Origin: Gammaproteobacteria bacterium | Lineage (GTDB): Bacteria > Pseudomonadota > Gammaproteobacteria > Magnimaribacterales > Magnimaribacteraceae | Direction: 5' to 3' | Assembly: GCA_004214065.1 (NCBI GenBank) | Contig: SGZM01000005.1 | Span: 1 to 55,883, forward strand | Length of the DNA: 55,883 nt | Made by a program: the position numbers and the translations under genes | The notes under the pieces: generated by a model | Seen by the model: only the letters and a program-made list of their open reading frames with translations | What the model was told of the DNA's origin: nothing | Databases searched by the model: none | In this document: piece after piece, positions 18,376 to 22,342 of the stretch | Position numbering within the stretch: position 1 is the first letter of the stretch | How the letters are laid out: each line of letters starts with the position of its first letter

Positions 18376-19449
18376 CTATATCAATTTAATTGATTGTAAA
18401 ATATCAGATTCTTTTATATCCGAGACAATTTTTGTACTCCCAATAGCATCTAGAAGAATGAAATTGAGCTTATCACCTTTCTTTTTCTTGTCGACTGACA
18501 TCAATTTTAATAATGCGCTTGCCTCAAATTTATTTTGCAATAGGGAATCTGTGAGAATAGAAGACATAAGGCTCTTTATTCTCTCGCTCTCTTCTTCGTC
18601 AAGGTGCAGTACTGATTGTGATAGGTTGGCTGCCATAATTATCCCCAAAGCAACAGCTTCACCATGAGTAAATTCTTGGAATTTGCCATAAACCTCTATT
18701 GCATGTCCAAATGTATGGCCCATATTAAGCCATTTTCTAACTCCTTGTTCAGTTTCGTCTTGTGCTACAACCTCTGCCTTTATTTCAATAGATTTCGCTA
18801 TAGCATCTAAAAGTTTTGTATCTTCTCCTGCTAAAAGATCTTCTATATTTTCTTCTAGCCAATTAAAGAAGCCTTCATCTTTTATTAAAGAGTGTTTAAT
18901 TATCTCTGCCATACCTTCTCTTAAATGACTTTGATCTAAGCTTGTGAGTAATTGTGTGTCAGTTAGTACTTTTGCAGGCTGATGAAATGCACCTATCATA
19001 TTCTTTCCTTTAGGATGGTTAATTGCTGTTTTTCCACCAACAGAAGCATCTACTTGTGCTAGTAAAGTTGAAGGTATGAGAACAAAATCTACTCCCCTCT
19101 GGTAGGTAGCAGCTGCAAAACCTGTCATGTCACATGTTATGCCTCCGCCCAGTGCAAAAAGTACGCAGTCCCTGCTGTAACTATTTTCTATAAGTATGTC
19201 ATGTATAAGAGATAGGGTAGAGGCTGACTTATTCTCTTCATTTGCTTCAATTATTATTTCTGAAAATTTTGATGATATAGGTTGAAGATTTGTTCTAACT
19301 TTTTCCTTAACAGAGCCCTTAATATTTGAATCAATAACTAATAGAATCTCTCTATTGGAAAATTCTTTAAAATTAGATTCCTTAAGAATATCCTTACCAA
19401 CTAAAACTGAATAAATCCTAGAGTCAGTAGTTATCTTTATTTCTTTCAT
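18376..19449 (-). CDS. aroB: 3-dehydroquinate synthase
   Basis: Second enzyme of the shikimate pathway, cyclising DAHP to 3-dehydroquinate with NAD and a divalent metal. The 357-residue protein has the family motifs ALGGGITCDMTGFAAATYQRG (NAD/substrate binding, residues ~99-119), PSTLLAQVDASVGGKTAIN and the C-terminal metal-binding RKWLNMGHTFGHAIE and FTHGEAVALG histidines. Length is typical. Overlaps aroK by 4 bp in the classic aroK-aroB order. Confidence 0.96.
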   Translation of the reverse strand: MKEIKITTDSRIYSVLVGKDILKESNFKEFSNREILLVIDSNIKGSVKEKVRTNLQPISSKFSEIIIEANEENKSASTLSLIHDILIENSYSRDCVLFALGGGITCDMTGFAAATYQRGVDFVLIPSTLLAQVDASVGGKTAINHPKGKNMIGAFHQPAKVLTDTQLLTSLDQSHLREGMAEIIKHSLIKDEGFFNWLEENIEDLLAGEDTKLLDAIAKSIEIKAEVVAQDETEQGVRKWLNMGHTFGHAIEVYGKFQEFTHGEAVALGIIMAANLSQSVLHLDEEESERIKSLMSSILTDSLLQNKFEASALLKLMSVDKKKKGDKLNFILLDAIGSTKIVSDIKESDILQSIKLI

Positions 19450-19952
19450 TTTCTTTTTTCTAGATTAAGGATGATTGAATCTACGACCTCATTTGGGTTA
19501 TTACTTTCCTTTATTATAATATCGCTACAACTTTCATATATAGGATTACGAAATTTTGCAATTTCTCTCAACGTTTCCTCTTTATCGTCAACACCTTCTA
19601 AGAGAGGCCTTTCTTTATCATTCATAGTCCTCTCTAATTGAGTTTGAATGCTTGTTTCGAGATAAATACATGTACCTTTTTTTAATAAATTTCTATTTTG
19701 TTCTCTCAAGATTATGCCACCGCCTGTTGAAATGACCGAATCTTCGTAATTAATTATATTGCTTAGCTCTTCAAACTCTCTTTCTCTGAATTTTTTTTCG
19801 CCTTCAACATCAAATATCCAGGAAATACTTACACCAGCTTTTTTTTCAATTTGTTTATCTGTGTCAAAGAAATCTAGACCCATTCTTTTGGAGAGTTTTT
19901 TCCCAACAACTGATTTACCAGAAGCCATAGGCCCGATAATTATTAGCCTCAT
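19446..19952 (-). CDS. aroK: Shikimate kinase
   Basis: Phosphorylates shikimate with ATP in aromatic amino-acid synthesis. The 168-residue P-loop kinase shows Walker A GPMASGKS (residues 7-14), DTDKQIEKKAG (shikimate-binding Asp), FREREFEEL and a glycine triplet STGGGIIL, all characteristic of AroK/AroL. It diverges from mrcA with only 20 bp between start codons, and its ATG is 6 nt after a TATAAT, so the message is predicted to be leaderless. In many gammaproteobacteria aroK lies at the end of pilMNOPQ, which is absent here. Confidence 0.95.
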   Translation of the reverse strand: MRLIIIGPMASGKSVVGKKLSKRMGLDFFDTDKQIEKKAGVSISWIFDVEGEKKFREREFEELSNIINYEDSVISTGGGIILREQNRNLLKKGTCIYLETSIQTQLERTMNDKERPLLEGVDDKEETLREIAKFRNPIYESCSDIIIKESNNPNEVVDSIILNLEKRK

Positions 19953-19958
19953 TGGGTT

Positions 19959-19966
19959 ATTATAAC
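19959..19966. promoter_or_regulatory. Overlapping divergent -10 boxes of aroK and mrcA
   Basis: The 8-bp block ATTATAAC at 19959-19966 contains TATAAC on the plus strand (19961-19966), ending exactly 6 nt before the mrcA ATG at 19973, and TATAAT on the minus strand (19964-19959), ending exactly 6 nt before the aroK ATG at 19952. The two -10 hexamers overlap by 4 bp. Both -35 regions would lie inside the opposite gene and are weak matches, so this rests on the -10 geometry. Confidence 0.5.
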
Positions 19967-19972
19967 TCCTAC

Positions 19973-22342
19973 ATGTTGCTTAAATTAAAAACATATTGCA
20001 TTTACATTTATAACAGCTATTTAGGAAAATTCATTCTGGTTTCTGCGTGCTTAGTTATTATGGGCTTGTCTAGTTTGAATTTGTATATTGATAGCAAGCT
20101 TCCTAATGAAGAAACTATAAAGGATATTGAACTTCAAATACCTCTCAAAATCTTTTCATCTGATGGAAAGTTGATCGGAGAATTTGGAGAGAAAAGAAGA
20201 ACAGCATTAAGTTTTAATGATATTCCAAATCACTATATAAATGCCGTACTAGCAGCGGAAGATGATAATTTTTTCTCTCATTCGGGAGTTAGTTACTCGG
20301 GTCTTATTCGATCATTATACAGGTTAGTAGTTTCTGGGAAGGTTCAAGGTGGGGGAAGTACTATTACCATGCAGGTTGCTGGAAATTATTTAACAAGCAG
20401 AGATGTTAGTCTTTTCAGGAAAGTAAAAGATATCTTTTTGGCTTACAGATTAGAAGAAACCTATTCCAAGGAAGAAATATTTGAGTTCTATGTTAATAGA
20501 ATATTTTTTGGTAACAGAGCTTATGGAATAGCTGCAGCTAGCGAAGTTTATTATGGCAAGCCTTTGTCTAAATTAGATCTAGCTCAGTGGGCAATGATCG
20601 CGGCTCTGCCTAAAGCCCCATCCACCATAAATCCGTTAGTAAATCCAAAAAGGGCGCTTATTAGGAGAAATTGGATTCTTAAGAGAATGCTAGAATTAGA
20701 GTTTATTCATCCAGAGCAATTTCAACTAGCTATTGAGGCTCCTATAACGGCAAATTATTACGGTTTAGTTTCTGAAGTTGAAGCCCCATATGTTGCGGAA
20801 GAAGTTAGGCGTTATATGATTCAAGAATATGGCCTTAAGGCTTATTCGGAAGGTTTGGAAGTATTCACAACCATAGACTCTAAATTTCAGAATCATGCTT
20901 CTAAAGCAGTTGAAAGAGGGTTAGAAACATATGACAAAAGGCATGGTTTTAGAAAGCCAGATAACATTTCTGATCTTTTTCCAGAGAAGTTTTTAGAGTC
21001 TTCAAGAGAAGAACAGCTTGCTGAGATAGAGAATACTTTAAGCGTGGAATCTATCAATGGAGCTGAAGATTCTGGATTACTTTCAGTATTTGATATTTTA
21101 GAAGGGGTAACAGAAAACAAAGGCCGATTCATGGGAGTCGTTATAAATAATAAAACTTCTCTTGAAATTCTGACAAAATCTGGAGAGATAACCACAATTA
21201 GTTGGGCTGAAGAATTAAGCTGGGCAAGGCCTTACATTTCGGAAAATAGAAGAGGGACAAAACCAAGAGCATATGAAGATATCTTGGTTCTAGGAGATTT
21301 GGTCTGGTTGAAACAAGATGAATTTACTCAAACTCTTTCTCTTACGCAGATCCCTGAAGCGCAGAGTGCTTTGATTTCTTTAGACCCGAAGTCGGGCTCC
21401 ATTATTGCTTTAGTAGGCGGTTATGATTTCTTTTTGAGTAAATTCAATAGAGTTGAGCAATCTTCTCCTCTGCTTGGATCTAATTTTAAACCTTTTCTTT
21501 ATGCAGCTGCCTTTTCTGATGGCTATACACCGGCATCGCTCATAAATGATGCTCCTATTGTTTTTGAAGATAAGGCTTTGGAAGAAAAATGGAGACCTAG
21601 AAATGCTAGCGGAAAATTTTACGGACTCACTAGACTAAGAGAAGGACTACTGCAAAGTAGAAATTTAGTCTCGGTAAGACTTTTAAGGGAATTAGGTGTT
21701 GAAAGGGTTCGGTCTTATACAGAAAAGTTTGGATTTGATAGGCAAAGACTTCCTGCGGATCTTTCATTGTCTCTTGGAACTGCCTCTCTTAACCCATTGA
21801 GTAATGCAGCTGCTTATTCAGTATTTGCAAATGGAGGAAAGAAGATTGAGCCATACTTAATATCTAAAATTATTGATAGGTCGGGAGTGATCCTCTTTCA
21901 AAAGAAGTTAAAAGAACCCGAACAAGTCATAGATCCTAGAATAGCTTTCTTGATTACTGATATTTTAAAAGAAGCTGCGGTGAGAGGCACTGCCAGAAAG
22001 GTTTTAGAATTAGAAAGAAATGATTTTGCAGGCAAAACAGGAACAACCAATGATGCCGAGAGTACATGGTTTACTGGATACAATGAAAATATTGTTACTT
22101 CGGTCTGGGTTGGTTTTGATCAGCCGAAGAGTTTAGGTGATCGGGAGTTTGGTTCATCTACAGCTTTGCCTATTTGGCTTGATTATAAGGCTGATCTTCT
22201 TGATCAAATTCCTATATCAATAACACTTCCTCCTAAAGGGTTATCTATTATAAAAATTGATAAAGATTCGGGTAAGCTAGCAAATCAAACCACTATTGAG
22301 CCGATATTTGAATATTTTTTAGAAGAGAATATACCTAATTAG
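19973..22342 (+). CDS. mrcA: Penicillin-binding protein 1A (class A, bifunctional)
   Basis: Inner-membrane peptidoglycan glycosyltransferase and transpeptidase. From the ATG at 19973 the protein has 789 residues: a single N-terminal membrane anchor (~16-38), the GT51 domain with AAEDDNFFSHSG and GGGSTITMQVAGN, an inserted OB-like region, and the transpeptidase with SNFK (the SxxK serine), SRN and KTGTTNDAES (KTG) motifs, all intact. A TTG at 19952 would add 7 residues but overlaps the aroK start; no ribosome site is visible for either. The end overlaps convergent slmA by 8 bp. In Pseudomonas and E. coli this gene faces the pilM-pilQ or hof genes; here it faces aroK directly. Confidence 0.95.
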   Translation: MLLKLKTYCIYIYNSYLGKFILVSACLVIMGLSSLNLYIDSKLPNEETIKDIELQIPLKIFSSDGKLIGEFGEKRRTALSFNDIPNHYINAVLAAEDDNFFSHSGVSYSGLIRSLYRLVVSGKVQGGGSTITMQVAGNYLTSRDVSLFRKVKDIFLAYRLEETYSKEEIFEFYVNRIFFGNRAYGIAAASEVYYGKPLSKLDLAQWAMIAALPKAPSTINPLVNPKRALIRRNWILKRMLELEFIHPEQFQLAIEAPITANYYGLVSEVEAPYVAEEVRRYMIQEYGLKAYSEGLEVFTTIDSKFQNHASKAVERGLETYDKRHGFRKPDNISDLFPEKFLESSREEQLAEIENTLSVESINGAEDSGLLSVFDILEGVTENKGRFMGVVINNKTSLEILTKSGEITTISWAEELSWARPYISENRRGTKPRAYEDILVLGDLVWLKQDEFTQTLSLTQIPEAQSALISLDPKSGSIIALVGGYDFFLSKFNRVEQSSPLLGSNFKPFLYAAAFSDGYTPASLINDAPIVFEDKALEEKWRPRNASGKFYGLTRLREGLLQSRNLVSVRLLRELGVERVRSYTEKFGFDRQRLPADLSLSLGTASLNPLSNAAAYSVFANGGKKIEPYLISKIIDRSGVILFQKKLKEPEQVIDPRIAFLITDILKEAAVRGTARKVLELERNDFAGKTGTTNDAESTWFTGYNENIVTSVWVGFDQPKSLGDREFGSSTALPIWLDYKADLLDQIPISITLPPKGLSIIKIDKDSGKLANQTTIEPIFEYFLEENIPN

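Follow-up and report, generated by a model that had tools for sequence, protein, structure and literature searches.

A conserved -10 block between aroK and mrcA in SAR86 as a putative minimal bidirectional promoter

The divergent genes aroK and mrcA on a SAR86 contig (the window, 55,883 nucleotides) are separated by a spacer of merely 20 bp. This spacer probably harbors one bidirectional promoter, which would give rise to a leaderless aroK(B) message and to an mrcA message whose leader is only 1-3 nt long. We propose a compact sigma70-type promoter which is built on a single symmetric extended -10 element, GTTATTATAAC. Polymerase bound in the minus orientation would use GTTATAAT and start at the A of the aroK ATG; bound in the plus orientation it would use GTTATTAT and start about 18 bp away, at 19970-19972. 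Two polymerases could not bind together, and at low activity a mutually exclusive expression of the two genes would not be expected. The reading which best accommodates the data is a conserved promoter of the known bidirectional type joined to a leaderless start that is likewise of a known type.

Gene arrangement and the spacer

The best NCBIfam match of aroK is AroK NF003456 (8.4e-49, under the curated cut-off of that model). aroK overlaps aroB (19449-18376; TIGR01357 match above cut-off) by 4 bp, thus the minus-strand promoter probably drives aroKB. The ATG of mrcA, 19973-19975, is kept in position in 18/18 genomes of the genus. The intergenic region reads CAT TGGGTTATTATAACTCCTAC ATG or, resolved further for 19950-19975, CAT TGGGTT ATTATAAC TCCTAC ATG. 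The features are:

aroK, 19446-19952, minus strand: shikimate kinase, ATG at 19952-19950, from the ORF call and a profile match
Predicted aroK transcription start, 19952, minus strand: A of the ATG (leaderless), placed 7 nt downstream of the -10 and fitting the genome-wide class
GTTATTATAAC, 19956-19966, both strands: symmetric extended -10 pair, invariant in 18 genus genomes
Proposed mrcA -10 TATTAT, 19958-19963, plus strand: highest-ranking -10 of this strand within 19860-19975, unchanged in all 29 family genomes
aroK -10 TATAAT, 19959-19964, minus strand: 6 nt before the aroK ATG, highest-ranking -10 of this strand in the region, unchanged in all 29 family genomes
aroK -14G, 19966, minus strand: partial extended -10 GnTATAAT, plus-strand C in 29/29 family genomes and in a genus of the sister family
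Predicted mrcA transcription start zone, 19970-19972, plus strand: 1-3 nt leader, derived from TATTAT at 19958-19963, 18-20 bp from the minus start
mrcA, 19973-22342, plus strand: class A penicillin-binding protein (PBP1A), TIGR02074 PBP_1a_fam match above cut-off

An initial annotation had pointed out a minus-strand TATAAT (19964-19959) and a plus-strand TATAAC (19961-19966), each exactly 6 nt from its own ATG within the 20-bp gap, and the letters of the window agree in every detail. It did not include the stronger plus-strand hexamer TATTAT at 19958-19963, which overlaps the same block. A -35 element is absent from either strand, the best candidates having 3/6 matches. A simple consensus promoter scan reported no promoter at the spacer because that scan requires a -35.

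Conservation among relatives

In a genome of 36% GC a lone TATAAT-like word means little; the conservation of this block, as judged from the alignments, is far in excess of chance. The family set comprises 29 genomes containing the aroK/mrcA junction, and 18 of these belong to the genus of the window. Columns 19958-19964 (TATTATA) and 19966 (C) are invariant in 29/29, compared with 0/45 invariant wobble columns of aroK in the same genomes, and the distance from the block to the aroK ATG is constant throughout. Comparison with relatives had been named beforehand as the check on which the idea of a shared block could founder, and the block withstood it. Within the genus the spacer length of 20 bp and GTTATTATAAC are both invariant, at aroK identities of about 66-80% to the aroK of the window (aligned N-terminal part).

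An 11-bp symmetric sequence which is invariant in a genus might equally be the operator of a regulator and not a promoter core. We consider this highly improbable because family-wide the outer arms vary, whereas the -10 hexamers and the minus-strand -14G stay, and because the distance to the aroK ATG coincides with the genome-wide -10 peak described below.

One genus of the sister family (six genomes) extends the comparison. Its aroK spacer is CTACTCATTATATC, with a G at the third base in one genome; TATAAT 6 nt before the aroK ATG and the -14G are kept, the base equivalent to T19958 is a C, and the mrcA start is more distant. Neither the other sampled genera of the sister family nor the genomes sampled from the remaining two families possess the block. 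Hence the aroK -10 predates, and is independent of, the tight divergent arrangement.

The aroK side: a probable leaderless promoter

Very probably the aroK mRNA begins right at the start codon. In 29/29 family genomes a conserved -10 hexamer is located 6 nt ahead of the ATG, and in none of the aligned relatives is an SD found within range of aroK. For the single-contig relative G005 (1.59 Mb, 36% GC) this range is defined by an SD peak at 5-8 nt. A minus-strand AGGAG upstream of the -10 was discarded as an aroK SD; it is 13 nt from the ATG, outside this peak, and is not conserved in the family.

The spacing of aroK is not singular. In G005, near-consensus -10 words ahead of ORFs that lead transcription units display a one-base-sharp peak 6 nt from the ATG, with 46 at this distance, whereas distances of 10-44 nt average 17.1 (sd 4.9). 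For exact TATAAT the numbers are 12 versus 2.5. Across 19 genus genomes TATAAT-N6-ATG adds up to 454 occurrences; N9 yields 200 and the reversed pattern 259. This sharp excess indicates that leaderless starts are a regular class in SAR86. The class may comprise some 30 genes in G005, an upper-range estimate since a few peak members, such as rplI, are coding coincidences. By its promoter sequence aroK is a fitting member in every respect. Thus, an invariant TATAAT-N6-ATG, a genome-wide class of the same build and the missing SD jointly argue for a leaderless aroK promoter, and on this point the initial annotation was right as far as the letters can tell.

Among the members of the peak are guaB, purB, folD, fabI and mpl. 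purB carries the same footprint: in 23/23 genomes, drawn from two genera, TATAAT-N6-ATG and a -14G are constant, although the bases between the -10 and the ATG change. Elsewhere, in several further genera, its -10 lies further out. Hence, inside one family, genes seem able to change from a leaderless to a leadered start or back. rplI was dropped as a conservation control, its TATAATTAA being read as the terminal part of the coding sequence of rpsR, which lies upstream; the rplI query, the first 30 residues from G005 with a generic L9 continuation, served only for the retrieval of loci. A phoB-like response regulator gene (G005:708040) has a leaderless-spaced TATAAT. It is preceded by a conserved CTTTGTGACAT, in which TGACA is repeated at a distance of about 11 bp, an arrangement reminiscent of a pho box occupying the -35 region.

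Within aroK itself, the wobble bases of codons 2-7 (19929-19949) are unusually conserved in the genus, having an entropy of 0.3-0.5 where the mean is 1.0. This could reflect an overlapping promoter, a requirement of the leaderless mRNA, or chance.

The mrcA side: a proposed plus-strand -10

The initial annotation assigned TATAAC (19961-19966) to mrcA and consequently predicted two strictly leaderless transcripts with starts at 19952 and 19973. TATAAC is indeed kept within the genus, and its 6 nt to the ATG is the leaderless distance. Nevertheless this assignment is very improbable. At -7, a key site and one of the two at which -10 elements are most strongly conserved, TATAAC carries a C, and with published -10 frequencies it scores 2.4 versus 4.9 for the overlapping TATTAT. 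In four family genomes it is replaced by TATATC, and genome-wide it is not enriched at 6 nt (1 seen, 0.9 expected). By its 6-nt hexamer mrcA therefore does not fit the leaderless gene class, unlike aroK, and the better TATTAT is located 9 nt away, a distance at which TATTAT shows no genome-wide enrichment. An SD was not found within range of mrcA.

TATTAT is more likely than TATAAC to be the -10 of mrcA. It is offset from the minus-strand -10 by one base, so that the -7T/-11A positions of both elements coincide, and in the genus it has a -14G of its own (19956), which renders GTTATTATAAC symmetric. With TATTAT as the plus-strand -10, the mrcA start is predicted at about 19970-19972 with a leader of 1-3 nt, and not at 19973. 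Of the two leaderless transcripts originally envisaged the one of aroK stands, whereas the one of mrcA gives way to a transcript with a minimal leader. A single -10 block usable in both directions is upheld, with TATTAT as the likelier plus-strand hexamer.

How much of the conservation is due to mrcA? Because the plus-strand -10 is a one-base shift of the minus-strand -10, most of the conservation of TATTAT is explained by aroK alone. The block might be used by aroK only, as a leaderless promoter working in one direction; the match on the plus strand would be a by-product of the near-symmetric TATAATA. mrcA would be transcribed from another promoter, e.g., GATAAT (19935-19940), which lies within aroK, and its short leader would have no SD. 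This is a possibility to be taken seriously, albeit clearly less probable than bidirectional use. TATAAT is followed by an A in about a third of the leaderless candidates (16/46), and an A is likewise common at the purB position matching T19958 (19/23). The sister-family genus retains the minus-strand -10 and -14G and not T19958; the wobble bases of aroK codons 2-6 are unusually conserved in the genus, and GATAAT, located there, is the second-best plus-strand -10 match. Further, in three genera of the family (g2, g6 and g7) the mrcA start is more distant, and there mrcA may have a -10 of its own. Against use by aroK alone stand T19958, invariant in 29/29 family genomes, and G19956 and T19957, which together with T19958 are invariant in 18/18 genus genomes. 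The purB positions matching G19956 and T19957 vary. GATAAT, moreover, occurs in nine variants across the family. These invariant bases lend modest support to plus-strand use beyond what aroK accounts for. What the data show directly is the sequence, its conservation and the genome-wide leaderless signature; use of the plus-strand -10 by mrcA, the exact starts and leaderless translation we infer.

Comparison with known promoters

For bidirectional use of the spacer the geometry is a familiar one. TATAAT (19964-19959) and TATTAT (19958-19963) form a symmetric -10 with predicted starts at 19952 and 19970, 18 bp apart. Among bacterial bidirectional promoters, a start spacing of 18 bp with coinciding -7/-11 positions is the arrangement met most often (PMC10268837; PMC12825309). 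Such promoters are recognized by mapped divergent starts 7-25 bp apart, and a further trait is a T at -18 from each start. With the starts predicted here, this T would be present for the plus direction (T at 19952) and absent for the minus direction if the plus start is at 19970, where the plus-strand base is T and not A.

The symmetric -10 bidirectional promoters (Warman et al. 2021, as cited through PMC10268837 and PMC12825309) share with the aroK/mrcA spacer overlapping -10 elements on two strands, the -7T/-11A coincidence, the dispensability of a -35 and, as predictions here, the 18-bp start spacing and the production of two mRNAs. The aroK/mrcA promoter differs from them in being predicted from sequence, in having its ATGs at or no more than 3 nt from the predicted starts, and in its conservation across a SAR86 family. 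In leaderless bacterial genes a TANNNT signal lies some 10 bp ahead of the start codon, and gammaproteobacterial cases were previously reported from Xanthomonadales and Legionellales (Zheng et al. 2011, PMC3160421). aroK resembles these genes in a -10 ending 6 nt before the ATG, the lack of an SD and its position as first gene of the unit, yet here the signal is common to a divergent gene. Our literature search found neither SAR86 in the context of leaderless genes nor start-site data for SAR86.

Two further systems are related. lysG/lysE of Mycobacterium tuberculosis has divergent overlapping promoters and one gene with an additional leaderless transcript, but a 108-bp spacer, a LysR-type regulator and a separate second promoter for the leaderless transcript (PMC5648196). 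The divergent promoters of EcoRV-type restriction-modification systems share overlapping core promoters and coupled transcription, but are controlled by a C protein (PMC5333194).

Pattern searches for -10 blocks readable in both directions between CAT and ATG returned purB, acetolactate-synthase-like and thioesterase-like genes in many genomes. As divergent leaderless pairs these were rejected, since in most cases no gene begins at the opposite CAT. We read them as one-directional leaderless promoters and claim no general class of pairs. Upstream of the thioesterase-like gene ATTATAAT has an ATG on either side at a distance of 6 nt, conserved in seven genomes; at the two loci that were read, the frame starting from the second ATG is only 2-8 codons long.

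Biological meaning

The initial annotation had further proposed that polymerases compete for the same DNA and that cell-wall and aromatic synthesis exclude each other at the promoter. Of the competition, the exclusion of simultaneous binding holds. Basal competition is not expected: in five tested E. coli bidirectional promoters basal activity was too low for it, and competition appeared only under strong activation of one direction (PMC12825309). Thus, exclusion between the pathways of aroK and mrcA is not a prediction that follows from the sequence, and a regulatory switch between aromatic and cell-wall pathways is not established by this finding.

A more far-reaching view can be offered tentatively, and we deem it rather unlikely: streamlined SAR86 genomes would have fused a leaderless and a divergent promoter within 20 bp, leaving aroK without an untranslated leader and mrcA with hardly any; the orientation of the polymerase would balance shikimate synthesis via aroKB against PBP1A, under family-wide selection. 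The individual pieces are already known; new is their combination in a spacer of 20 bp, kept in the genus on a core that is kept in the family. In a marine lineage that is abundant and uncultured, the aroK/mrcA spacer would provide an example of a minimal bidirectional promoter with deep conservation. It points to a class of leaderless genes in SAR86, and it suggests that genome streamlining may squeeze two promoters into a single -10 block.
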